From: Blastocatellia bacterium
Lineage (GTDB): Bacteria > Acidobacteriota > Blastocatellia > HR10 > J050
Length of the DNA stretch: 64,000 bases
Assembly (NCBI GenBank): GCA_025054955.1
Contig: JANWZE010000023.1
Location: 1 to 64,000 of the forward strand
Direction: 5' to 3'
Shown here one piece after another: positions 33,183-48,850 of this stretch (positions are counted from its first letter, which is position 1; each line of letters begins with the position of its first letter). A model generated the notes under the pieces. The model was not told the DNA's origin. It ran no database searches and was given only the letters and a program-made list of their open reading frames with translations. The position numbers and the translations under genes are program-made.

Positions 33183-33198
33183 TGGCATGCAGCTTGCA
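33183..33198 (+). promoter_or_regulatory. candidate sigma-54 promoter before a micro-ORF and CBS genes
   Basis: TGGCATGCAGCTTGCA: GG-N10-GC with strong -24 and -12 elements, almost identical to the element at 41198-41213 (TGGCATGCAGATTGCC). It lies 23 bp before the 22-residue frame at 33221 and 147 bp before the CBS gene. Confidence 0.7.
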
Positions 33199-35021: not shown

Positions 35022-36689
35022 TCAATGAGGTGGTTGAAAAATGTGTGGCGTTAAAGTCCGACTCTTAAGCGACGCCGGCAATCGCACAACAAAGCTGCTT
35101 CCCTGGCCTACGGTGCTTTCCACGGAGATGGTTCCGCCATAATTGGTGATGATACGATGAGACGTTGCCAGTCCCAATCCGGTGCCCTTTTTCTTGGTCG
35201 TGTAAAAGGGGCGAAAAATTTTCTCCAGATGCTCTGGGGCGATGCCCTCTCCGTTGTCGGTCACTTGCAGGATGATCGCTTCGTCTTTGGGATCAAAGCT
35301 CGTCGTCACGATAATTCGGCCTTTGCTTTTGCCCTGGACAGCATGGACGGCGTTCAGCAAAAGGTTGAGGATCACCTTTTGCATCTCATCGGGGTCTACC
35401 ATGACGGTAGGCAAGTGAGGGTCTTGACGAAATTCGATCTCAACATGGCCGTCGGCGACCTGCATCTGGGTCATCGTGATGGCATGTTCGATCAGTTGAT
35501 TCAGATTGGTTCGCGTATTACTGGCTGTATGCGGCCGCGCATAATCAAGCAGGTCACTGATGACGCGATTGACACGCATGGTTTCATCCAACACATGCTT
35601 CAAGACGGCGCGATTGGCATCGCCTTCGGGCAAATTTTCCAAGACAATTTCCAAGGCGCCTTTGATGCCAGCCAACGGATTCTTCACCTCATGAGCCAGT
35701 CCTGCCGCCAGCTCGCCGATCAAGGCCAGTTGCTCAGCGCGGGCGATGCGCCGCTCCAGCATCACGTGTTCGGTGATGTCGGAGACAACGTGAACCGAGC
35801 CGATCACCTGTTGTTGATCGTCCAACAAGGGACTGACCGTCACGCGCAGGACTTTGCCGCCGGGTCGCTCGACAATCTCAGTTGTGGGACAGCGGCTAAC
35901 GGTGGCTCGGTGGTCAGCGCAATCTGGCAAGCTGCCCTGACGACCCAGTATGGCCAAGCAACACGAGCTGCCCACCAACGTGTCCAACGGTTGATCCAAA
36001 ATGCGCGACAAGGCTTGGTTCGCCTTAATGATTTGCAGGTCAGGCCGATGAACCGAAATGCCATCCTGAATGGCGTTAAATGTGCTCTCCCACAGTTTGC
36101 TGGCGTAGGTGCTTTCGGCCAGCAGCCGCGCATTTTCGATCGCCATGCCCAGTTGCAAACCGATACATTCGAGCAGCTCCAGGTCGTCGGCAATCGCGCG
36201 CTCAGGATCATAGCTTGCTGTCACCAGCACGCCGATGACCTTGCCTACAGCAATCAGCGGGACACAGGCCAACGCGTGAACATTGAACTTCGCCACCACC
36301 GAACGAGTCACACGTGGATCACGGGCAGCATCGCGAACGACCAACGGCTCACCGCTGACGTACACCTGACCAGCCAATCCTTCGCTCGGCTTCAGATGAT
36401 CAATGCCGGCGATATACTCACGCGCAACGCCCCGCGCTGCGCGAACACGGAGGTCGCCGCTGTGCGGGTCGAAGAGCAAGACGAGCGCCATATCGGTGCC
36501 GATCACATCGGTCACAACCGCGAGCGCTTCTTCCATCAGCGGGTCCAACTGCTGCGAATGACTCAACACCGCAGCCAACCGGCTCAAGGCAGCTACTCGT
36601 TTCATTGGGGGCTGAGCCGGCGCGGCAGTGGCAATGCCCGCAGAATGAGGGATGGCAACGGCTGGCGCTTTGTTTTTCCTGACCGGCAT
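35022..36689 (-). CDS. soluble GAF-PAS histidine kinase
   Basis: 555 residues, no transmembrane segment. A GAF domain (about 45-200), a PAS domain (about 205-320, ESTFNAIQDGISVHRPDLQI), HisKA (about 330-395, phospho-His in GLAHEVKNPLAGIKG) and HATPase_c (about 430-545, N-box NLLLNAVHAV, G-boxes DNGEGIAPEH and GTGLGLATSH). It should phosphorylate a response regulator in answer to a cytoplasmic ligand or redox signal bound by GAF/PAS; the NtrC-type gene transcribed divergently from 36754 is the obvious partner. Only 64 bp separate the two start codons. Confidence 0.93.
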   Translation of the reverse strand: MPVRKNKAPAVAIPHSAGIATAAPAQPPMKRVAALSRLAAVLSHSQQLDPLMEEALAVVTDVIGTDMALVLLFDPHSGDLRVRAARGVAREYIAGIDHLKPSEGLAGQVYVSGEPLVVRDAARDPRVTRSVVAKFNVHALACVPLIAVGKVIGVLVTASYDPERAIADDLELLECIGLQLGMAIENARLLAESTYASKLWESTFNAIQDGISVHRPDLQIIKANQALSRILDQPLDTLVGSSCCLAILGRQGSLPDCADHRATVSRCPTTEIVERPGGKVLRVTVSPLLDDQQQVIGSVHVVSDITEHVMLERRIARAEQLALIGELAAGLAHEVKNPLAGIKGALEIVLENLPEGDANRAVLKHVLDETMRVNRVISDLLDYARPHTASNTRTNLNQLIEHAITMTQMQVADGHVEIEFRQDPHLPTVMVDPDEMQKVILNLLLNAVHAVQGKSKGRIIVTTSFDPKDEAIILQVTDNGEGIAPEHLEKIFRPFYTTKKKGTGLGLATSHRIITNYGGTISVESTVGQGSSFVVRLPASLKSRTLTPHIFQPPH

Positions 36690-36753: not shown

Positions 36754-38154
36754 ATGAGCAAACAAAAAATTCTTGTCGTGGATGACGAAGACCTGCTGCG
36801 GTGGTCTATCAAAACCAAGCTGGAAAAATGGGGCTACGAGACGATCGAAGCAGAGACGGCCAGTCATGGTCTGAAACTATTCACTGACGAAGCGCCAGAC
36901 CTCGTCATTCTGGACATCAAATTGCCGGACGGCTCAGGCATTGACATCCTCCGGAAGATCAAAGAAGAGAATCCCAACACACCGGTCATCATCATCACTG
37001 CCAATACGACCGTTGACAACGCCGTCGCGGCGCTGCGCCTGGGCGCGTTTGACTTCATCTGCAAGCCAATCAACTACGACGAGCTGCAAGCATCCATCAG
37101 AAACGGGCTGGAAGCCAGCCACCTGCGCGACACGCTCGACCGCGTTCAATCATATTCCAAGAAGCGATTCAGTTTCGACATGATTGTCGGCGAATCGCCA
37201 CAAATGCGCGAGCTACTGGAGACGGTGCGGCGCGTCGCCGAGAGCGAAGCTTCGTGCGTCGTGCTGCTGGGCGAATCGGGCGTCGGCAAAGACCTTGTGG
37301 CCAAAGCGATTCACTATCAGAGCCGTCGGGCGCAGTATCCTTACGTCGCCATCAACTGCGCGGCCATCCCTGAAACGCTGATGGAAACCGAGCTGTTCGG
37401 TCACGAAAAAGGCGCCTTCACCGACGCTCGCGGCCAAAAGAAAGGCGTGTTTGAATTGGCTGACGGCGGCACCATCTTGCTCGATGAAATCGGCGACCTG
37501 CCCCTCGGCCTGCAAGCTAAGTTGCTGCGTGTGATCGAAGAACAACAATTCCGCCGCGTCGGCGGCGTGCGCAACATCAACATTGACGTGCGCATCATCG
37601 CCAGCACCAATCGCAATCTGGAAGAAGAAGTGCAACAGGGCCGATTTCGCGCTGATCTCTACTACCGGCTCAGCGTCGTGCAGATCACCATTCCACCGCT
37701 GCGCGAACGGAAAGAAGATGTGCTGTTGATCGCCGAGCACCTGATCAAGAACTTCAACGTCAAAATGAAGCGAAACATCATCGGACTGGCGCCCGAAACA
37801 AAGAAGCTATTTCTGGAATACACATGGCCGGGTAATGTGCGTGAGCTGCGCAACACTATTGAACACGCGATGATCTTCGAGGAATCACCCTATATCACGC
37901 CTAAGCATCTGCACACACGCATCAGCCACCACGGCCTGCCGGCCAGCAATCTCACGCCCAAACTGGGCACGCCGAAGCTGGTCGGCCGGATGACGTTGGA
38001 ACAGATGGAACAAACCATGATTGAACAAGCGCTGGAGCAAACCGGGTGGAACCAGACGCGCGCGGCCGATCTATTGGGCATCTCGCGCGATGCGATTCGC
38101 TACAAGATCAAGAAGTATCATATCGAGCGGCGTCAATCAGTCGCTCGGGTCTGA
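36754..38154 (+). CDS. NtrC-family sigma-54-dependent response regulator (partner of the adjacent kinase)
   Basis: 466 residues; GGAGG lies before the ATG. Receiver (1-120; VVDDEDLL, Asp in VILDIKLPDG, Lys in ICKPINYDE), AAA+ (about 145-380; Walker A GESGVGKDLVAKAIH, Walker B GGTILLDEIGD) and a Fis-type helix-turn-helix (about 425-466; AADLLGISRDAIRYKIKKYH). The sigma-54 contact loop reads GAFTDA, not GAFTGA; this variant occurs naturally in other activators. It stands 22 bp before the first cytochrome gene and is the best candidate activator of the sigma-54 promoters at 33183, 34713, 41198 and 42036. Confidence 0.94.
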   Translation: MSKQKILVVDDEDLLRWSIKTKLEKWGYETIEAETASHGLKLFTDEAPDLVILDIKLPDGSGIDILRKIKEENPNTPVIIITANTTVDNAVAALRLGAFDFICKPINYDELQASIRNGLEASHLRDTLDRVQSYSKKRFSFDMIVGESPQMRELLETVRRVAESEASCVVLLGESGVGKDLVAKAIHYQSRRAQYPYVAINCAAIPETLMETELFGHEKGAFTDARGQKKGVFELADGGTILLDEIGDLPLGLQAKLLRVIEEQQFRRVGGVRNINIDVRIIASTNRNLEEEVQQGRFRADLYYRLSVVQITIPPLRERKEDVLLIAEHLIKNFNVKMKRNIIGLAPETKKLFLEYTWPGNVRELRNTIEHAMIFEESPYITPKHLHTRISHHGLPASNLTPKLGTPKLVGRMTLEQMEQTMIEQALEQTGWNQTRAADLLGISRDAIRYKIKKYHIERRQSVARV

Positions 38155-38176: not shown

Positions 38177-40168
38177 ATGGCACGGCATCGCTGGATGGCA
38201 GTAGTTGTGATATTGGCAAGCACGGCAGCGGTCTTCGCCCAATCGGCGAAACAATCGGTGGACTGTATGAGCTGCCATCAGGATGCCACCTTGACCAAGC
38301 AAGTGAACGGACGGACGGTCAGTCTTGCTATCAAACCAGAAACGTTCGAGGCGTCGGTTCACGGCGTTTTGAACTGTACCGACTGCCACACTGATGTCAA
38401 AGACTACCCACACGAGCCGCCGCCCAAAGCGGTTTCCTGCGCAAGCTGCCATGCTGAGGCACATCAGGCCTACATGCAGGGCTTGCACGCCAAAGCCCGT
38501 AATGGCGGCAGGGCGCAAGCGGCTAGTTGTTTAGATTGTCATGGCGATGCCCACCAGATCAGGCCGTCCAGTGATCCGACGTCGAAAACCTATCGCAGCA
38601 ACATTCCGCAGACCTGCGGCTCGTGTCATAGTCTCAAGTTCGTCATGGAGCCGTCACATTTGAGCGCCCAGCCGTTTTTCTCGTATCAAGAGAGCGTGCA
38701 TGGACGAGCGGTCGCCGCCGGCTCGCTGAAAGCTGCCGTCTGCACAGACTGCCATCATAGCCACGACATTCGTTCCCCCGGCGACCCAAAATCGGAGATT
38801 TTCAAATTCAACGTGCCCGCGCTGTGCGGCAAGTGCCACGAATCAGTGACCGCTGAGTTCAACCAGAGTATCCACGGACAAGCCATCCAGCGCGGCCGAT
38901 GGCAAGCGCCTGTCTGCACCGATTGTCACGGCATTCATTCGATCAAGTCGCACATTGATCCGACGTCTTCTGTAGCTGCGCAAGCGCTGGCGCGCACCAC
39001 CTGCGCGACGTGTCATGAAGGCGTGCGATTATCGCAAGAGTTTGGCGTGCCAGGCCGGCGCACCAGCACCTATTTGGATAGCTATCACGGCCTGGCCTCG
39101 CGACTGGGTTCCAAGGTCGCTGCCAATTGCGCCAGTTGCCACGGCGTGCACAATATCCTTCCTTCGTCTGATCCGCGCTCGACGATCTCAAAAGCCAATC
39201 TGGTCAGTACCTGCGGGCGCTGTCATCCGGGCGCCAGCGAAAACTTCATTCGCGGCCGAGTCCACGTAGATGTGCCGATTTCAGAGGATACGGGCAGCAT
39301 TGTCAGCGCGTGGATCAGGACGTTCTACATCTGGTTGATCGTCATTCTCATTGGCGGCATGGTCGGTCACAATGTGATCATCTGGCGGAAAAAAGCGATC
39401 GCCGTGCGTCGCGCGCAAGACCGCTCCATCATCCGCATGACGCCGCAACAACGATGGCAGCATCTGTTGTTGCTCATCAGCTTCACCGTGCTGGCGTTGA
39501 CCGGATTCGCGTTGAAGTATCCCGATTCATGGCTGGCTTGGTTGCTTGGTTCTAGTGAACCATTTCGGCGAATCACCCATCGCGTGGCCGGCGCTGTCAT
39601 GATCGGCGTTGGGCTTTACCATATCGTCTACGTCTTCTGCACAAAAGAAGGATGGGAGGGATTCAAAGCGTTTCGCCCGACAAAACAAGATGTGTATGAT
39701 GCTGTCCACAACATACTGTATTATCTTGGCCGCCGATCAGACCGCCCCCTGTTTGGGCGGTTCACCTATGCCGAGAAGCTGGAATACTGGGCGTTGGTCT
39801 GGGGCATCATCATCATGGGCATCACCGGTCTGATGGCCTGGTTTGAAGTGACCGTGACGAAACTGCTTCCTCGTTGGTCTATTGATGTCGCCTTGACCAT
39901 TCACTTTTACGAAGCCGTGCTGGCCACGCTGGCTATCATCGTATGGCACTTATATCATGTTGTGTTCGACCCAGACGTTTACCCGATGAACTGGGCTTGG
40001 TGGGACGGGCGAATGTCTATCGAACAGTTCCGCCACGAACACCCGCTGGCTTACCAGCAGATGCTTGCCGAGCAGGAACAAGAACGCCGCGAACCGGCGG
40101 GCAAACCGGCGCGGCATGATTCAACTGACGAATTCAAACCATCTCCGGCTAGTAGCGGAGATGATTAA
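38177..40168 (+). CDS. 11-haem c-type cytochrome fused to a cytochrome b-like membrane domain
   Basis: 663 residues from the ATG at 38177 (MARHRWMAVVVILAS), with AAAGGAGGTGAG upstream; the frame extends left into the regulator gene. A signal peptide (about 1-22) leads to a periplasmic part with eleven CxxCH motifs (CMSCH, CTDCH, CASCH, CLDCH, CGSCH, CTDCH, CGKCH, CTDCH, CATCH, CASCH, CGRCH; about 30-375). The C-terminal half has a transmembrane helix (about 385-405) and a cytochrome b561/b6-like four-helix domain (about 430-620) with conserved His in FRRITHRVAGAVMIGVGLYH, DVALTIHFYEAVLA and IVWHLYHVVF. Such fusions can move electrons between quinones and periplasmic carriers. It is the first gene after the regulator; a mono-haem cytochrome follows 12 bp downstream. 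Confidence 0.9.
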   Translation: MARHRWMAVVVILASTAAVFAQSAKQSVDCMSCHQDATLTKQVNGRTVSLAIKPETFEASVHGVLNCTDCHTDVKDYPHEPPPKAVSCASCHAEAHQAYMQGLHAKARNGGRAQAASCLDCHGDAHQIRPSSDPTSKTYRSNIPQTCGSCHSLKFVMEPSHLSAQPFFSYQESVHGRAVAAGSLKAAVCTDCHHSHDIRSPGDPKSEIFKFNVPALCGKCHESVTAEFNQSIHGQAIQRGRWQAPVCTDCHGIHSIKSHIDPTSSVAAQALARTTCATCHEGVRLSQEFGVPGRRTSTYLDSYHGLASRLGSKVAANCASCHGVHNILPSSDPRSTISKANLVSTCGRCHPGASENFIRGRVHVDVPISEDTGSIVSAWIRTFYIWLIVILIGGMVGHNVIIWRKKAIAVRRAQDRSIIRMTPQQRWQHLLLLISFTVLALTGFALKYPDSWLAWLLGSSEPFRRITHRVAGAVMIGVGLYHIVYVFCTKEGWEGFKAFRPTKQDVYDAVHNILYYLGRRSDRPLFGRFTYAEKLEYWALVWGIIIMGITGLMAWFEVTVTKLLPRWSIDVALTIHFYEAVLATLAIIVWHLYHVVFDPDVYPMNWAWWDGRMSIEQFRHEHPLAYQQMLAEQEQERREPAGKPARHDSTDEFKPSPASSGDD

Positions 40169-40180
40169 CACGGAGGGACT

Positions 40181-40534
40181 ATGATGGTGTTAATCAAGAA
40201 ACTCACATTCAGCCTTTTTGTCGCTCTCCTTACGCTGACGATGATTTCCTCATGGCCTGCGCCGACGGCCACTACGCTGGTCAACGACGCAGCCAAACTC
40301 TATGAAGCCAAATGCGCCAAATGTCACGGCGCTGATGGCACCCCAACACAGATGGGCCAGAAGATGAAAGCGCCTGATCTGCGTTCCAGTGAGGTTCAAA
40401 AGAAAACAGACGACCAATTGTTCAAAGCGATTGCCAAAGGCGAAAAATCCTTCCATCAACTTGAAAAGAGCATGAGTGAAAAGGAAATTCGCCAACTGGT
40501 GGGGCATATCCGTGCATTGGCTAAGAAAAAATAA
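40181..40534 (+). CDS. class I-like mono-haem cytochrome c
   Basis: 117 residues (ATG at 40181 or 40184; GGAGGGAC upstream). Signal peptide about 1-27, then KLYEAKCAKCHGADGTPTQM with one CxxCH and a C-terminal helix KEIRQLVGHIRALAKK as in cytochrome c-553/cbb3-type domains. The distal Met is uncertain; KSMSE near residue 98 is the likeliest. Periplasmic shuttle, probably redox partner of the multihaem protein encoded just upstream. Confidence 0.87.
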   Translation: MMVLIKKLTFSLFVALLTLTMISSWPAPTATTLVNDAAKLYEAKCAKCHGADGTPTQMGQKMKAPDLRSSEVQKKTDDQLFKAIAKGEKSFHQLEKSMSEKEIRQLVGHIRALAKKK

Positions 40535-41197: not shown

Positions 41198-41213
41198 TGG
41201 CATGCAGATTGCC
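41198..41213 (+). promoter_or_regulatory. candidate sigma-54 promoter of the Cys-rich membrane protein gene
   Basis: TGGCATGCAGATTGCC: GG-N10-GC, 51 bp before the start at 41264. It differs from the element at 33183 at two positions only. Confidence 0.7.
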
Positions 41214-41263: not shown

Positions 41264-41836
41264 ATGAGCACCGTGCTGTATACGATCATCATCGTCGTGG
41301 CGCTGGGCGTCTTATACCTGGTGATGCGGCTTGTTATCGGCGCCTATCTGACCTATCGTGGCAAACGGCTGGTCACCTGCCCGGAAACGAACCAGCCGGC
41401 TGTCGTTGAAGTCAACGCGCTGCAGGCGGCCAGGACCGCGATGGTTGGCAAGCCGCAGCTTGAGCTTGATGCATGCTCTCGCTGGCCCGAACGAGCACAC
41501 TGCGGCCAAGAGTGCTTGCGACAGATTGAAGCGGCACCCGAAGCTTGTTTGATACAAACGATGCTATCAAATTGGTATGCGGGCAAGTCCTGTGTGCTGT
41601 GCGGCCACGTTTTTGAAAAAATTCACTGGGCCGAACATAAGCCGGCCTTGAGGGATCAGCAGGGTCGAACATACAGTTGGCAGGATATTCATCTGGAGCA
41701 GTTGCCGCAGGTGCTGCAAACGCACGCGCCGGTTTGCTGGAATTGCCACATTGCCGAGAGCTTCCGTCGTCAATACCCCGACCTAGTGGTGGATCGCCCG
41801 TGGCGAGACAACCTTCCACGCCAGGATGAGAACTGA
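41264..41836 (+). CDS. membrane-anchored Cys-rich protein, possible mono-haem protein
   Basis: 190 residues with AAGGAGATGGAG before the ATG. One N-terminal membrane helix (about 4-30), then a soluble part with nine Cys: CPETNQPAVVEV, CSRWPERAHCGQECLRQI, EACLIQTMLSNWYAGKSCVLCG and a terminal VCWNCHIAESF holding one CxxCH. Sequences with this C.RWPER..C.QECL layout occur beside cytochrome genes in related bacteria, but no function is established. It may bind haem through CWNCH and metal through the other Cys. It stands alone between two sigma-54-type promoters at the head of the decahaem genes. Confidence 0.65.
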   Translation: MSTVLYTIIIVVALGVLYLVMRLVIGAYLTYRGKRLVTCPETNQPAVVEVNALQAARTAMVGKPQLELDACSRWPERAHCGQECLRQIEAAPEACLIQTMLSNWYAGKSCVLCGHVFEKIHWAEHKPALRDQQGRTYSWQDIHLEQLPQVLQTHAPVCWNCHIAESFRRQYPDLVVDRPWRDNLPRQDEN

Positions 41837-42035: not shown

Positions 42036-42051
42036 CGGCATACCAATTGCT
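42036..42051 (+). promoter_or_regulatory. candidate sigma-54 promoter of the outer-membrane conduit genes
   Basis: CGGCATACCAATTGCT: GG-N10-GC with TTGCT at -12. It lies 77 bp before the OmcA/MtrC start at 42128. Confidence 0.6.
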
Positions 42052-42127: not shown

Positions 42128-44137
42128 ATGATCAGAAGCACTACAATGAGAACACGCATCAAGCTCGCATTCTTAATCGCCGGGTTCATTGCCCTGGTGG
42201 CCGGATTTGATCCGGGCGGCTTAATTGCGCAGCAGCAGGTGTTGCCGCGACCGGGCTTGAAACTGGAGATTCTGGGCGTCACCATTCCCGAAAGTCGCAA
42301 GCCAGAAGTTACATTCAAAATCACCGATGAACGGGGAATGCCTCTGGACAAAGACGGCGTCACAACTGAAGGCGTGGTGACGTTACGATTTTTGATCGCT
42401 CGTATTCGACGTGGCGAGCGGCAGTACACATCCTATATTGTTCGTCAGCAAACCGGCGCCGCCCTGGGAACGGTGGACCAAGCAGCAGCCGATTCAGGCG
42501 GCACGTATGCGCAGGTCGGTCCCGGCACCTACACGTACACATTCGGAACGACGCTGCCGGCCAATTATGATCGGACGGTCACACATACAGTCGGCGTTTA
42601 TGCCAATCGAGACATGACACATGTTGATGGCAATGATTATGTGGCTGCCGCGACGTTTGATTTTGTGCCGAACGGCACTCCGGTAACCGTCAAGCGGGAT
42701 GTTGTCAATGACGCGGCCTGCAACAAGTGTCATGATCAATTGACAGCGCATGGCGTGCGTCGCAGCGTCGCGTTGTGCGTGCTGTGCCATACGCCACAAA
42801 CACCCGATCCCGATACTGGCAATACAACCGACTTCAATGTCATGATCCATAAGATTCATCGGGGCGCTGATCTGCCCAGTGTGCGAGCTGGCCGGCCCTA
42901 TCAACTGATTGGCAATCGCGGTGTCGTTCATGACTACTCGAAGGTTCGATTTCCGCAAGACATTCGCAACTGCGATAGCTGCCACACGGGCAGTCAAGGG
43001 ATGAATGCACTAACCCGTCCGTCGCGGATAGCGTGTGGCTCCTGCCATGATAACGTCAACTTCGCTACTGGTCAGGGTCATGGACCGGGCATCCCGCAGA
43101 CCAATGACCTAGCCTGCGGGTTCTGCCATCAACCGACCTCCACAACAGAATTCGATCTGTCGGTTGCCGGCGCGCACGTGATTCCCAATCAATCCAGACA
43201 ACTGCCCGGCATCAAGTACACGATCGTCAGGGTTGAGAACACGGCGGCAGGACAACGCCCCAGAGTTATATTCAACATCACGGACAATGCCGGCCGTCCG
43301 ATTCAACCCAGTCAAATGAGCCGACTGGCGCTTGTGCTGGGCGGGCCAACGAGCGACTACAGCCGCTGGTGGACGGAAGATGCTCGCATGGCCACGCCGA
43401 CCGGCGACGGCAACTACGCTTACACCTTTAACACGGCCATTCCTGCTGACGCCACAGGCACGTACACAGTGACGTTGGAGGGCCGCCGCAATGTTCAGAT
43501 CATCGGCCCGAACTTTCAACCAACAACAATTCAAGACACCGGTCCGAATGTCACCAAGTCATTTGCTGTGACCGGACCGCTGGTCGAACGTCGTGTCGTT
43601 GTGGATTTGGCCAAGTGCAACGCTTGTCATGATATGTTGCGGGTGCACGGCGACAATCGGTTTAACAATGTGCAGTATTGCGCCGTGTGTCACAACCCGA
43701 ATCAGACGGACGTGGCGCGCCGACCGCAAGCGGAGCTGCCTGCTGAGAGCGTGGATTTCAAATACATGATTCACCGCATCCACGCTGGCAAAGAGCTATC
43801 CAGCGACTTCACCGTATACGGATTCGGCGGCACGGCGTATAACTACAATAACGTTGGTTTCCCTGGACGGCTGACCAACTGCACGATGTGCCATGTGGCT
43901 GGAACCCACTTGATTGGTTCGACCGCCGGACGATTGCCAACGGTCACGCCCAGAAGTCTGATCAATCCAACACCGCCGATTTCTGCGGCCTGCGTTGGCT
44001 GCCACGATAGTCAGGCCACATTGGCTCATGTTTCATTGAACACCTCTCTATTCGGCGAATCGTGCGCCGTCTGTCACGGCGAAGGGCGCGAGTTTGCCGT
44101 ATCGAAGTCGCACTTCCGGCGACCTGATGCCCGATGA
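42128..44137 (+). CDS. OmcA/MtrC-family decahaem c-type cytochrome
   Basis: 669 residues; CAAGGAGG precedes the ATG. A signal peptide (about 7-35, LIAQQQ) without a lipobox Cys, then beta domain I (about 45-190), five haems (CNKCH, CVLCH, CDSCH, CGSCH, CGFCH; about 195-345), beta domain II (about 350-490) and five more (CNACH, CAVCH, CTMCH, CVGCH, CAVCH; about 495-655). This beta-haem-beta-haem layout is that of OmcA/MtrC proteins, which pass electrons at the cell surface to minerals, electrodes or other acceptors. Unlike Shewanella homologues it is not visibly a lipoprotein, so it may be held by the barrel encoded at 46793. A strong hairpin follows the stop. Confidence 0.93.
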   Translation: MIRSTTMRTRIKLAFLIAGFIALVAGFDPGGLIAQQQVLPRPGLKLEILGVTIPESRKPEVTFKITDERGMPLDKDGVTTEGVVTLRFLIARIRRGERQYTSYIVRQQTGAALGTVDQAAADSGGTYAQVGPGTYTYTFGTTLPANYDRTVTHTVGVYANRDMTHVDGNDYVAAATFDFVPNGTPVTVKRDVVNDAACNKCHDQLTAHGVRRSVALCVLCHTPQTPDPDTGNTTDFNVMIHKIHRGADLPSVRAGRPYQLIGNRGVVHDYSKVRFPQDIRNCDSCHTGSQGMNALTRPSRIACGSCHDNVNFATGQGHGPGIPQTNDLACGFCHQPTSTTEFDLSVAGAHVIPNQSRQLPGIKYTIVRVENTAAGQRPRVIFNITDNAGRPIQPSQMSRLALVLGGPTSDYSRWWTEDARMATPTGDGNYAYTFNTAIPADATGTYTVTLEGRRNVQIIGPNFQPTTIQDTGPNVTKSFAVTGPLVERRVVVDLAKCNACHDMLRVHGDNRFNNVQYCAVCHNPNQTDVARRPQAELPAESVDFKYMIHRIHAGKELSSDFTVYGFGGTAYNYNNVGFPGRLTNCTMCHVAGTHLIGSTAGRLPTVTPRSLINPTPPISAACVGCHDSQATLAHVSLNTSLFGESCAVCHGEGREFAVSKSHFRRPDAR

Positions 44138-44265: not shown

Positions 44266-45702
44266 ATGAGACTATTATCGCGGAAATGGGTATGGACGCT
44301 GGTGACGTTGTTTTGGCGCAACTGGCTCACGTCGCTCGGCTCGATTCTGGCCACATTCAGCGCCCTTTCAATCATCGCGTTCGTCGCGCTTGGATTTCTC
44401 GGACTTGACACGCCGTACCTGGGCGTCATGGCATTTCTGGTGATGCCGGCCCTATTTATCGTCGGGCTGTTTCTGATCCCGATTGGCCTTCACTACGACC
44501 GAAAAAAACGCGCCACGCGTCAAGACGAACCTGAGCTTTACCCCGTCTTTGACTTCAATCAGCCTCGTCTACGACGCATGGCCGGCGTGGTGGCCGTGTT
44601 GACGGCTATCAACCTGATGATTTTGTCATTCGTCAGCTATCAAGGCGTCGTGTTCATGGATTCAGTGGCGTTTTGCGGCACGACCTGTCATACCGTGATG
44701 GAGCCGGAATACACGACGTACCTCAACTCGCCGCATTCCAAAGTCAAATGCGTGGAATGTCACATTGGCGCAGGTGCGCCGTGGTTTGTTCGTTCCAAAC
44801 TCTCCGGCGTAGGACAGGTGCTGGCCGTCGCCTTCAACACCTATAGCCGACCTGTGCCCTCGCCGGTGGAGAATTTGCGCCCGGCGCGCGATACGTGCGA
44901 ACAGTGTCACTGGCCTGAACGATTCACCGGCAATCGTATCAAAGTCATCACCAAATTTGCCGAAGACGAATCGAACACTGAAACCAAAACGGTCTTGCTC
45001 TTGCATATCGGTGGCGGCGCGACCGGCCAAGGCGGCATTCATAGCTGGCACATTGATCCGAAGAAAGAAACAACCTATATCACCACGGACCCGCGCCGAG
45101 AAGTCATCCCGTGGATTCATGTCAGAGAAGCCGATGGAACGGTTCATGAGTTTGTCGCCCGCGAAGGTGCGCCAACGGCCGAACAGCTTGCCAAGGGTCA
45201 GAAACGCACCATGGATTGCATTGATTGTCATAATCGTCCGACGCATATCTTCAAATTGCCCGATCAAGCTATGGACGAATCGTTGGCAGCCGGCCGCATT
45301 GATCGTTCGTTGCCTTACATCAAGAAAGTCGGCGTTGAAGCGCTGAAACAAGCCACCGGACCGAAACAGGAGGCGCTGGAAAAGATTGCCCGGCGCGTTC
45401 GCGACCACTTCCAGCAAAACTACCCTGAACTGGTCATCTCGAAGAAACCAGCGATTGAAGCAGCCATCGAGGAAATTCAGGCGATCTATCGTCGCAATAT
45501 ATTTCCATCCATGAACGTCACATGGGGAACGCATCCCGATCATATCGGTCATGAACGATTCCCCGGTTGTTTCCGCTGTCATGATGATCAGCACGTGAGC
45601 AAGACCGGCAAGACGATCAGCCAGGATTGTAGTTTGTGTCATACGATTTTGGCTCAGGATGAACAAGACCCAGAAGTGCTCAAGCAGTTGGAGATCAAAT
45701 AA
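44266..45702 (+). CDS. NapC/NirT-like membrane multihaem cytochrome
   Basis: 478 residues; GAGGTAGG precedes the ATG. Three membrane helices (about 20-48, 52-75 and 108-128) are followed by a periplasmic part with six haem sites: CGTTCH (a CX3CH variant), CVECH, CEQCH, CIDCH, CFRCH and CSLCH. The segment TCHTVMEPEYTTYLNSPHSK is the NapC/NirT signature, pointing to oxidation of membrane quinol and transfer to periplasmic cytochromes, the role CymA plays in Shewanella. It is longer than tetrahaem NapC and belongs to a wider group of quinol-linked multihaem proteins. Located between the OmcA/MtrC and MtrA-like genes. Confidence 0.88.
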   Translation: MRLLSRKWVWTLVTLFWRNWLTSLGSILATFSALSIIAFVALGFLGLDTPYLGVMAFLVMPALFIVGLFLIPIGLHYDRKKRATRQDEPELYPVFDFNQPRLRRMAGVVAVLTAINLMILSFVSYQGVVFMDSVAFCGTTCHTVMEPEYTTYLNSPHSKVKCVECHIGAGAPWFVRSKLSGVGQVLAVAFNTYSRPVPSPVENLRPARDTCEQCHWPERFTGNRIKVITKFAEDESNTETKTVLLLHIGGGATGQGGIHSWHIDPKKETTYITTDPRREVIPWIHVREADGTVHEFVAREGAPTAEQLAKGQKRTMDCIDCHNRPTHIFKLPDQAMDESLAAGRIDRSLPYIKKVGVEALKQATGPKQEALEKIARRVRDHFQQNYPELVISKKPAIEAAIEEIQAIYRRNIFPSMNVTWGTHPDHIGHERFPGCFRCHDDQHVSKTGKTISQDCSLCHTILAQDEQDPEVLKQLEIK

Positions 45703-45803
45703 TGTTCGTGGATTCAGCAGAGACAGCGGCCAGCAGGCCAGGCGCGTTTTCAGCCTCGCTTAGCACGCGCAGCGATCTCTGCCGGTAACTTTTGAGGCGC
45801 TCT

Positions 45804-46775
45804 ATGAGAACGCGATCAGCTCTTTCACATGTGAAGCTCGTCACGACGCTCTGCTTTCTTCTCATCACGGTCATTGCCGTCAGCGTGGATGTACCGGTCA
45901 CAACGTCGTTCGCTCTGCCGCAGCAAGCGCAGTCGGCAACACAAGAAACGGCGGCCACCGGCTCGTATGTCGGTTCGGAAACTTGCATGGGTTGTCATGA
46001 AGACATTCACAAACAATATGCGATGACCGCTCATTACGTGACCGACACCAGCGCCCGCTATCAGCAACCGATGAAAGGCTGCGAGGCCTGTCACGGGCCT
46101 GGCCAGGAACATGTGGATGCCGGCGGCGACGCGACCAAAATTTTCAATCCAAAAGGCAAGCCGCCGCGCCTCGCCAATGAGCGGTGCCTCAGTTGCCATC
46201 AACAACAGGAAGAGCGTCACAACTTTCGCCAAAGCGAGCATGGACTCAATCAAGTGGCCTGCATTGATTGCCACTCACCGCATCCGGCCAAACCGCTCGA
46301 AAACCTGTTGGTGAAGGAGAGTCCGGCGCTTTGCTATCAATGTCACGGCCAAATCAAGCAGCAATTTCAACGCCCATTCCATCATCGCGTTCATGAAAAA
46401 GGCATGAGCTGTCAGGATTGCCACAATCCGCACGGCGGCTTCAACCTCGCACAAACACGGGCGTCAGCCGGCGGAACCGATGCCATCTGCTTGAAATGCC
46501 ACACAGAGAAACAAGGACCTTTCGCCTTTGAGCATGCGCCGGTTCGGTTGGAAGGCTGCGTCATCTGCCACGTGCCGCATGGCTCCAATAATCCCAAGAT
46601 GCTCAAACGGAGCACAGTGCAACAGTTGTGTCTGGAATGTCACTCCGATACGCCGGGCATCTTCGGTCCAGAGCCGCCTGCATTTCACGATATTCGCAGC
46701 CCGCGATACCAAAACTGCACAACCTGTCACGTGAAGATTCACGGCTCATACGTCAATCGCCTGTTTCTGCAATGA
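45804..46775 (+). CDS. MtrA/DmsE-family periplasmic decahaem cytochrome
   Basis: 323 residues from the ATG at 45804 (GAGG six bases upstream); the frame extends to a TTG at 45792. A signal peptide (about 8-35) precedes ten regularly spaced CxxCH motifs: CMGCH, CEACH, CLSCH, CIDCH, CYQCH, CQDCH, CLKCH, CVICH, CLECH, CTTCH. Length, haem count and the start SYVGSETCMGCHEDIHKQYA fit the MtrA/PioA/DmsE family, which carries electrons through an outer-membrane barrel. The barrel gene follows 17 bp downstream, as in mtrAB and dmsEF. Confidence 0.94.
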   Translation: MRTRSALSHVKLVTTLCFLLITVIAVSVDVPVTTSFALPQQAQSATQETAATGSYVGSETCMGCHEDIHKQYAMTAHYVTDTSARYQQPMKGCEACHGPGQEHVDAGGDATKIFNPKGKPPRLANERCLSCHQQQEERHNFRQSEHGLNQVACIDCHSPHPAKPLENLLVKESPALCYQCHGQIKQQFQRPFHHRVHEKGMSCQDCHNPHGGFNLAQTRASAGGTDAICLKCHTEKQGPFAFEHAPVRLEGCVICHVPHGSNNPKMLKRSTVQQLCLECHSDTPGIFGPEPPAFHDIRSPRYQNCTTCHVKIHGSYVNRLFLQ

Positions 46776-46792
46776 GGGCCAGCGGAGGTTAT

Positions 46793-48850
46793 ATGCAGCA
46801 CACGATATTGGACACTCGACAAATCGCGTTTCCGATCATGCTCGCGCTCCTGCTCACGCTGGGGCTGACCACCTCGACGGCTTACGCGCAATCAACGTCG
46901 CCAGAGGAGCCTACACCACAGCAAGGGCCGGTCGAAGGATTCAAACTTGGCGGCCTGATCACCTCAGGCACGATTGAAATGGGGACGCGCCAGACGTGGA
47001 TCGGCGGCAATCAAGATGTCTATCGCAGTCAAGTTAACTTAGGCGCCGGGGTGCGCCTCTTTGACATCGCCGTGCAATCGCGCTCGCCCGATAACGCCGG
47101 CCCACTCTATGACACGCTCTCTTACCACATGACAAGCTGGGGCGGCGACCCTTACAACACCGTCCGGCTGAGCATCCAGAAGCGTCACCTCTACCGATTC
47201 GATCTACGATACTGGCGCATGGATTACGTCAACCTGCTGCCCACGTTTGCCAATCCACTGGTCAACCAAGGACTATTGATCAACCAACATAGCTTCAATC
47301 AGGCTCGCCGCGTCTCCAGCTACTGGCTCACGCTGCTGCCCAACCGGGACTTTCAAATCCGACTGGGCTACGAACGAAACTTTGCGTTTGGCCAGGCACT
47401 CACCACGTTTTCTATCGGACTGGATGAGTTTGTGCTCCAAGACCCAATGCGAACGACGACGAATGATTATCTGGTCGGAGTGGATACCACACTCGGTATG
47501 GTTGACCTGACCATTGAGCAAACCTTCCGCACGTTCAAGGATGATATGACCACGTTCCAAACGCCCGGCCTGATCAACAACGGCAATAGCCCGCGAGTTG
47601 GGCCGATTGGCGCTGTCAACCCGCAACAAATTCTGCTGACCTCGTTTCAGCGCGACAGCGCGGTACGCGGCTTCATGCCGGCCACGCGCCTCGGCCTGAA
47701 TATCCGACCGAGCAAACAGGTTCAATTCACCGGCCGCGTGGTCTACAGCGATGCCGAATTCGATTTCAATCGAAACGAAATCCTATCGGGCAATCTCTTC
47801 GATTTATCAGCGCTCAGCTTCGTCACGCGGCAACGCTCCAACGCGCTGGCAGCAGCCTCTCGCCCCATCACCACCGCTGACACTGCGTTGCGCGTCAGCC
47901 CAATCGAGCGCCTGACGCTGACCAATTCGACCTCATTCAATCACTTCGTCATCGCCGGCGGCAGTCTGTTAGAGACACTTCAAATTCTCGGTCTCACCTT
48001 TCAAGGGACGCCGCCGCCACCGAATCAAATGCAGCGCCTGGTCTCTTCGTTTCTGGATGAACGCACGTCGCTGCGTTCGCTGCGCAATCTGTTTGAAGCG
48101 AGCCTTGAGGCGCATCCTCGCCTGACACTGCGCGGCGGATACCGGTTCACCAACCGGCGCGCCCGGTTGACGATTCCCGTTCCGTTTCGCGCTATTGACC
48201 AGTCAAGCCTCGATACACACACCGGGATTGCTGGCCTGACCCTGCGCGCGCCGAAGCAATTTCGCCTGATGGCTCAATTGGAGCGCGGCTCTGCCGATAA
48301 TGTCTTCACCCGGATTGCGCCGTATCACCTGACGCGACTGCGCGTGCGCTCCAGTTTCCAGCCGCTCTCGCAATGGCGGCTGAGCGGCGAGTACACGCTC
48401 ACCGACGCGCGCAATCCCAATCCGTTTGTTGACACCCTGCACCGGCATCGCGCCTTCAACATTCATTCCACCGTATCGTTGAACGAACGCTTGGATATGG
48501 ACCTCGGCTATACGCGCGTGGACATTTCATCAGACACTTCGATCATCCTGAATCCACGCACGCTCGAACGCGGCAACTCGCCCTATCGAGCCGATGATAA
48601 TGCCGTGAACGCGGACCTCACGTTTTCGCCGTCGAGGCGGGTTCATCTGTCTGTCGGCTATGGCGTGATTAACTCCAAGGGGACATTTCCACTTAATTAT
48701 CACCAACCGCGCGCGCGCCTGTCGCTTGATCTGCACCGACGGCTCAGTTGGATTGCCAGTTGGGGTTGGTATGGCTACAACGAAAAGGGCGTCGCGATTC
48801 AGGATTATCGCGCCCATTTGCTGAGCTCAAGCCTGAAACTCAGGTTTTAG
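46793..48850 (+). CDS. MtrB/PioB-family outer-membrane beta-barrel
   Basis: 685 residues from the ATG at 46793 (GCGGAGG upstream). A signal peptide (about 12-35, TAYAQ) and a linker lead into an all-beta barrel of alternating strands (KLGGLITSGTIEMGTRQTWI, WRMDYVNLLPTFANPLVNQG, and the final YRAHLLSSSLKLRF with terminal aromatic). PioB/MtrB proteins sheath the MtrA-type decahaem wire and dock the outer cytochrome. The N-terminal CXXC found in Shewanella MtrB is not seen here. The stop codon TAG overlaps the first bases of a family-1 repeat. Confidence 0.9.
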   Translation: MQHTILDTRQIAFPIMLALLLTLGLTTSTAYAQSTSPEEPTPQQGPVEGFKLGGLITSGTIEMGTRQTWIGGNQDVYRSQVNLGAGVRLFDIAVQSRSPDNAGPLYDTLSYHMTSWGGDPYNTVRLSIQKRHLYRFDLRYWRMDYVNLLPTFANPLVNQGLLINQHSFNQARRVSSYWLTLLPNRDFQIRLGYERNFAFGQALTTFSIGLDEFVLQDPMRTTTNDYLVGVDTTLGMVDLTIEQTFRTFKDDMTTFQTPGLINNGNSPRVGPIGAVNPQQILLTSFQRDSAVRGFMPATRLGLNIRPSKQVQFTGRVVYSDAEFDFNRNEILSGNLFDLSALSFVTRQRSNALAAASRPITTADTALRVSPIERLTLTNSTSFNHFVIAGGSLLETLQILGLTFQGTPPPPNQMQRLVSSFLDERTSLRSLRNLFEASLEAHPRLTLRGGYRFTNRRARLTIPVPFRAIDQSSLDTHTGIAGLTLRAPKQFRLMAQLERGSADNVFTRIAPYHLTRLRVRSSFQPLSQWRLSGEYTLTDARNPNPFVDTLHRHRAFNIHSTVSLNERLDMDLGYTRVDISSDTSIILNPRTLERGNSPYRADDNAVNADLTFSPSRRVHLSVGYGVINSKGTFPLNYHQPRARLSLDLHRRLSWIASWGWYGYNEKGVAIQDYRAHLLSSSLKLRF

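Follow-up and report, generated by a model that had tools for sequence, protein, structure and literature searches.

A probable CbcL/MtrH/MtoC-family cytochrome encoded beside an ImcH-type protein in an acidobacterial MtrA-MtrC gene cluster

How bacteria select an inner-membrane entry point to extracellular electron transfer has been described best for Geobacter: ImcH works there at potentials above -0.1 V, CbcL at lower ones (PMC12307469). CbcL of Geobacter sulfurreducens is an inner-membrane quinone oxidoreductase with an N-terminal multihaem c domain, all of it bis-His ligated, fused to an FdnI/HydC-like b domain (PMC9129911, PMC6295460); it is described as having six helices and carrying nine c and two b haems (PMC9129911). 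The family to which it belongs, CbcL/MtrH/MtoC, spans 15 phyla, and its members carry 3 to 23 CX2CH motifs and mostly six transmembrane (TM) motifs (four or five in a few), share 28.6% identity or more, and in some cases are encoded beside mtrAB (PMC6295460). MtrH of Rhodoferax ferrireducens and MtoC of Dechloromonas and Gallionella are encoded with mtrAB or mtoAB (PMC6295460). ImcH proteins are characterized by three N-terminal TM helices, one CX3CH and 5-9 CX2CH motifs (PMC6295460). Homologues of imcH and cbcL lie in one region of Desulfuromonas soudanensis (PMC4914508), and vicinity of the two genes as such is therefore known.

Here we examine a gene cluster in a window of 64,000 nucleotides (the whole stretch of DNA analysed) at the start of contig JANWZE010000023.1 from a Blastocatellia bacterium. 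The protein encoded at 38177-40168 is, judging from its sequence features, very probably a CbcL/MtrH/MtoC member, an inner-membrane quinone/periplasm oxidoreductase feeding an MtrA-MtrB-MtrC conduit beside an ImcH-type protein. Both this assignment and that of the neighbour to ImcH rest on published family features rather than on identity to named proteins. The family is already described, and the window protein is not a new kind. The cluster is composed as follows.

35022-36689, minus strand: GAF-PAS sensor histidine kinase, divergent from the regulator gene (Pfam)
36754-38154, plus strand: sigma-54-dependent response regulator with receiver, AAA+ and Fis-type HTH domains (Pfam), 22 bp before the cytochrome gene
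38177-40168, plus strand: probable CbcL/MtrH/MtoC-type protein, 663 aa, 11 c-type haem motifs and a b-type membrane domain (ORF, Pfam, motif count, alignment, model)
40181-40534, plus strand: mono-haem class I cytochrome c, 12 bp after the cytochrome gene, a candidate periplasmic partner (Pfam)
41264-41836, plus strand: 190-aa protein with one N-terminal hydrophobic segment, one CXXCH and several more cysteines (sequence features)
42036-42050, plus strand: sigma-54-like -24/-12 site before mtrC, in the same place in relatives L013 (3136) and L014 (2958)
42128-44137, plus strand: OmcA/MtrC-family decahaem cytochrome (TIGR03507, 504.3 bits, cut-off 209.3)
44266-45702, plus strand: ImcH-type quinol dehydrogenase, the "NapC-like" protein of the initial annotation (N-terminal membrane stretches, one CX3CH, five CX2CH)
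45792-46775, plus strand: MtrA/DmsE-type decahaem cytochrome (TIGR03508, 251.9 bits, cut-off 192.2)
46793-48850, plus strand: MtrB-like protein (position after mtrA and similarity among loci alone)

The MtrB-like protein has no family match above cut-off in Pfam or NCBIfam, and its start is taken at an ATG within ORF 46628-48850, the longer one listed. Neither Pfam nor NCBIfam matches the 190-aa protein at E 0.001. Sigma-54-like matches over the window (83 against 95 expected) are not above chance and single sites mean little; the site before mtrC, in the same place in three genomes, fits the sigma-54 regulator of the cluster. Two sigma-54-like 15-mers, at 41198-41212 and 33183-33197, differ by one base, and each stands upstream of plus-strand genes. 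A plasmid search gave no match.

The 663-aa reading frame at 38177-40168 is open throughout. A longer ORF, from TTG 38021, was dropped as the cytochrome start; ATG 38177 is the better choice because the TTG ORF overlaps the regulator gene, whereas this ATG has AAAGGAGG 7 bases upstream and a signal peptide beginning at it. The regulator stops 22 bp before the ATG, and the gene thus lies directly after its presumed regulator, as first annotated. The protein contains 11 CXXCH motifs and C488 as its sole additional cysteine. Its six hydrophobic segments correspond to the signal peptide and five helices, and it is laid out in four parts, all on the plus strand.

38177-38239, plus strand: predicted signal peptide, residues 1-21 (positive N-terminus, hydrophobic segment 4-26, helix 4-21 in the model)
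38255-39268, plus strand: periplasmic 11-haem domain, residues 27-364 (motif count, alignment)
39290-39403, plus strand: predicted anchor helix TM1, residues 372-409, with H398 at 39368-39370 (alignment, model)
39416-40102, plus strand: FdnI-like four-helix b-type domain, residues 414-642, with presumed ligands H429, H468, H576 and H591 and the extra conserved H482 (Pfam, profile, fold, conservation)

Pfam places Ni_hydr_CYTB (PF01292) on residues 421-598 at 53.3 bits against a cut-off of 30.1, and several multihaem c families also match. These profiles are general ones (Ni_hydr_CYTB, cytochrome c7), and none names CbcL; the formate dehydrogenase gamma equivalog TIGR01583 reaches 45.6 bits and stays below its 115.85 cut-off.

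The fused c plus b architecture is not a chance product. Among 58 genomes (its own included) some match is present in 35 and a match at 52% identity or more in 15, with 67% identity in G001, a relative from the same family in the genome taxonomy; a genome contig scan confirmed at least 558 relatives, of which the best 80 were kept. Of these best 80 of at least 558 loci, 52 are from Acidobacteriota, and the rest include Omnitrophota, Verrucomicrobia, KSB1, Ignavibacteria, Bacteroidetes, Gemmatimonas, NC10 and Planctomycetota (taxon groups assigned by hand from record titles). Geobacter, Rhodoferax, Dechloromonas and Gallionella are not named in the titles of these best 80 of at least 558 loci. 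For conservation analysis we used an 83-row alignment that includes the window protein and leaves out L013, L019, L023, L038, L044 and L065 (reading frame not recovered) as well as L014-L016 (repeats of L003, L006 and L008).

In the periplasmic domain the CXXCH motifs start at residues 30, 67, 88, 118, 147, 189, 217, 247, 276, 318 and 346, bearing out the eleven c-type haem sites originally annotated, and each has its own candidate distal histidine (residues 62, 79, 104, 126, 175, 196, 233, 254, 304, 325 and 363). Ten of the distal histidines are kept in all 63 aligned eleven-haem sequences and H79 in 62 of 63. Because there is one conserved extra periplasmic histidine per haem, all eleven c haems are probably bis-histidine ligated. 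Across the 83 aligned sequences the motif number is eleven in 63, nine in 11 and thirteen in 9; these counts refer to clipped stretches, and L085 has 17 motifs in its whole ORF against an alignment maximum of 13. In the structure model, residues 101-361 (38477-39259; eight of the eleven motifs) resemble the haem cores of hydroxylamine oxidoreductase-type enzymes (Z 6.1-8.4, 22-27% identity), and nine of the 50 VIA-align matches listed are multihaem enzymes, mostly of this kind, in the same Z range. The likeness may reflect a common haem arrangement and is not taken as proof.

The protein was modelled from the 83 sequences (mean pLDDT 86.7), an earlier 12-sequence model (59.7) having been set aside as poor. 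The model contains the anchor helix (372-409) followed by helices 423-447, 461-488, 531-555 and 567-597, so the four-helix b-type domain described initially is present in the same polypeptide, with one extra helix between it and the haem domain. In a Foldseek search of the PDB, FdnI, the gamma subunit of E. coli formate dehydrogenase-N (1kqf_C), was the only match below E 0.001 (E 7.2e-5, TM-score 0.79 by FdnI length). VIA-align likewise places FdnI first (Z 16.5, rmsd 2.9 over 210 residues), followed by the E. coli hydrogenase-1 cytochrome b (Z 11.3 and 10.5), and a profile comparison finds FdnI at sequence level as well (E 1.2e-14). Domain search and structure prediction, the checks suggested at the outset, recover Ni_hydr_CYTB, multihaem c families and the FdnI fold. 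H429, H468, H576 and H591 align with FdnI H18, H57, H155 and H169, which we take to be the b-haem ligands of that protein, and all four are kept in 83 of 83 aligned sequences; the C-terminal domain does have the His pairs for b haems whose lack would have told against the original reading. FdnI differs in having no c-haem domain, and its match covers neither H482, which falls in an alignment gap, nor the anchor helix with H398. As the haem domain is outside and the anchor helix takes the chain to the cytoplasmic side, the four-helix unit would be oriented as in FdnI.

Two further membrane histidines are almost as constant as the presumed ligands: H398, in the anchor helix, occurs in 83 of 83 fused sequences, and H482, in the third helix, in 82 of 83 (the exception is L081). 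Both are also found in split paralogues of the fused gene. At 25 loci the fused gene has a nearby two-gene paralogue (26 pairs picked by eye; further pairs may exist) in which the first gene encodes a multihaem c protein that stops past the anchor helix and the second a b protein, and H398 is present in 25 and H482 in all 26 of these pairs. The match of the split b proteins begins at about residue 402-420, and the joint between the c and b modules is seen directly, since the pairs break between the anchor helix and the b domain. Their layout may resemble that of Geobacter CbcBA, whose b and c portions are encoded separately. At L032, L035, L050, L051, L055, L074, L083 and L087 the c-type member of a split pair near the fused gene has 19 CXXCH motifs. 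The genome of the window has no second Ni_hydr_CYTB gene over cut-off, and a candidate CbcBA-like pair in it was dropped when its weak second Ni_hydr_CYTB hit turned out to be a bc1-type cytochrome b.

As a control we used other Ni_hydr_CYTB proteins of relatives (14 loci, of which three did not align and L106 repeats L099, leaving ten). H468 is present in all ten and H482 in one of the nine that have a residue there, several of the alignments being weak; beyond the third helix the control alignment is weak (H429 aligned in 8 of 10, H576 and H591 in 4 of 10), and the anchor helix with H398 lies outside it. By position, H398 and H482 would lie near the cytoplasmic ends of their own helices. One tentative and rather doubtful reading of this pattern is a third b haem held between them at the cytoplasmic side, in which case the family would bind three b haems, not two; otherwise the two histidines could be part of a family-specific quinone or proton site. 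Three conserved histidines have been proposed as possible b-haem ligands in CbcL/MtrH/MtoC (PMC6295460), and in the literature searched, most of it known by listing alone, we found no statement on a third b haem in this family.

These properties can be set against the published systems. The motif count of 11 lies inside the family range of 3-23, and five helices plus a signal peptide inside that of 4-6; the C-terminal HydC/FdnI-like b-type domain is in the same chain as the c haems, and conserved membrane histidines are available as candidate b-haem ligands (H398, H429, H468, H576 and H591 in 83 of 83, H482 in 82 of 83). The window protein differs from CbcL in having eleven haems instead of nine and, in its model, five helices plus a signal peptide instead of the six helices reported. 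The conduits of Geobacter are porin-cytochrome (Pcc) pathways (PMC6295460), whereas the window gene clusters with MtrC and MtrA genes. In the clusters of MtrH and MtoC the second quinol dehydrogenase is CymA (R. ferrireducens) or none is named in the published account (PMC6295460), while that of the window is ImcH-type.

The "NapC-like" protein at 44266-45702 has the hallmarks of ImcH: CGTTCH at residue 137 as its one CX3CH motif, five CX2CH motifs (within the published range), and N-terminal hydrophobic stretches at residues 20-78, with room for two helices, and 102-137, which together match the published pattern. Pfam assigns it to Cytochrom_NNT (41.1 bits, cut-off 24.1). It departs from the published picture in its surroundings: the published account of imcH reports no adjacent mtrAB or mtoAB (PMC6295460), whereas in the window an mtrA-family ORF follows about 90 bp after the ImcH-type gene. 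Throughout the best 80 of at least 558 loci, which as top-scoring loci are no random sample of neighbourhoods, an ImcH-type gene lies near the CbcL-type gene (up to about 10 kb) in 43. It is on the same strand within 350 bp in 33 of the 80, downstream in 27 (all Acidobacteriota) and upstream in six (all Omnitrophota); where at least 6 kb are available on both sides (43 of the best 80), 28 of 43 have it within 6 kb. Three TM segments are predicted in 42 of the 43 ImcH-type ORFs, and 42 likewise have a single CX3CH. The CX2CH count is six in 34 of the 43 and five or seven in three each; single ORFs have three, twelve or twenty, values that lie outside the range described. This wide neighbourhood, in different orders, goes beyond the one published case of vicinity, and in the literature searched, most of it known by listing alone, no statement on a wider CbcL-type/ImcH-type pairing was found.

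Such frequent proximity, in two gene orders, is what one would expect if the two proteins formed one functional unit, a complex or relay, instead of serving as alternative entry points. We regard this as distinctly unlikely, for either gene also occurs in the company of an MtrA-type gene by itself. ImcH without a full window-type protein is found in nine of the 58 genomes (one, G044, has a divergent copy in pieces on another contig), and an MtrA-family gene lies within 7 kb of ImcH in eight of the nine and within 10 kb in the ninth. Conversely, four genomes have a divergent copy (35-37% identity) and no full ImcH, with an MtrA-family gene within 5 kb in two and on another contig in two; G047 and G013 are genomes with only the divergent copy and an MtrA-family gene nearby. 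At the G050 locus a ten-haem ORF and a 711-aa ORF in the MtrB position accompany ImcH, and at the G047 locus an eleven-motif MtrA-family ORF and a 693-aa ORF in the MtrB position accompany a window-type protein with nine haems; the MtrB assignment of both ORFs is by position alone.

Having both CbcL-type and ImcH-type genes is common among the genomes compared. Of the 15 genomes with a window-type protein at 52% identity or more, 14 have a full ImcH-type gene, and both genes lie within 6 kb of each other in 12 of the 15. They are on different contigs in G001, a further argument against a single unit: contig 25 carries the window-type gene together with MtrC, MtrA and an MtrB-like gene, and contig 36 carries ImcH. 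In G002 the window-type gene and the start of MtrC are on contig 422 and ImcH on contig 96, and contig 91 carries the end of MtrC and MtrA without ImcH between them. Because relatives carry an MtrA-type gene near each type alone, or near both, either a CbcL-type or an ImcH-type protein can probably supply an MtrA-type conduit. On another contig in the genome of the window (G000:C152, L094 5117-8293) lies a second decahaem gene of the MtrA family; the ORF after it, of 709 aa, has the MtrB position, and no MtrC-family match was found on that contig.

Reading the computed haem motifs, ligand conservation, predicted-model fold and neighbourhood together, we infer a quinone site, ligand pairing, partner, redox window and outward electron path as follows. 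By analogy with FdnI, the four-helix b domain would oxidise quinol on its cytoplasmic side. Electrons would cross the membrane over two b haems, presumably paired as H429/H591 on the inner and H468/H576 on the outer side, and pass to the eleven bis-His c haems in the periplasm. From there they would reach the MtrA-MtrB-MtrC conduit via a small cytochrome, perhaps the adjoining mono-haem one. The CbcL-type protein would work beside the ImcH-type protein, most likely in another redox window, as Geobacter CbcL does relative to ImcH.

One point against this path is that mono-haem class I cytochromes usually have a high potential and fit a low-potential chain poorly. In a different reading, the CbcL-type protein would serve other periplasmic acceptors, for instance an oxidase and the mono-haem cytochrome c, in place of a bc1 complex, and not be wired to this conduit. 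The mono-haem gene lies directly downstream, a similar one is found on the same strand within 700 bp in 14 of the best 80 of at least 558 loci, and the genome has three COX1-family genes over cut-off. Moreover, a clear MtrA gene (over 120 bits) is seen in only 10 of those best 80 loci and not in the other 70, many loci ending at contig ends, and a large share of the family may have no tie to such a conduit. For the window protein itself we nevertheless consider this destination unlikely: its gene shares one cluster with MtrC, MtrA and MtrB-like genes both in the window and in G001, and a bc1-type cytochrome b is encoded separately in the genome, its ORF preceding one for a nine-haem cytochrome (G000:C50, L093 6674-9162).

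Electrons could also flow mainly in the opposite direction, the CbcL-type protein then reducing quinone with electrons that extracellular donors deliver via the conduit, as in the MtoC mode. FdnI, the closest fold, reduces quinone in its own enzyme, and an FdnI-like orientation would conserve energy in this mode; the three COX1-family genes are in keeping with it. CbcL/MtrH/MtoC homologues are present in Fe(II) oxidisers, and the authors of the published family description found no feature separating the two directions (PMC6295460). However, no RuBisCO large subunit was found in the genome, which makes autotrophy by that route unlikely, and the ImcH family is so far tied, in the same account, to quinol oxidation only (PMC6295460). 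The three COX1-family genes and the lack of a RuBisCO large subunit make it probable that the organism is a heterotroph capable of using oxygen. This agrees with outward flow without proving it; we hold the inward mode to be somewhat improbable.

A quinone-to-periplasm module additional to the NapC-like protein, as initially suggested, remains the best reading of the window protein, with the b-haem His positions and the FdnI fold both present. If the third b haem were true, the protein would contain fourteen haems and its electron path close to the quinone site would be longer or would branch, and H398 and H482, if haem-binding, would alter the two-b-haem picture given for CbcL. The two types of entry point stand together in one acidobacterial cluster with MtrC and MtrA, and in relatives an MtrA-type gene is accompanied by either type or by both. 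The set of such relatives is a natural test of which type feeds the conduit and at what potential.
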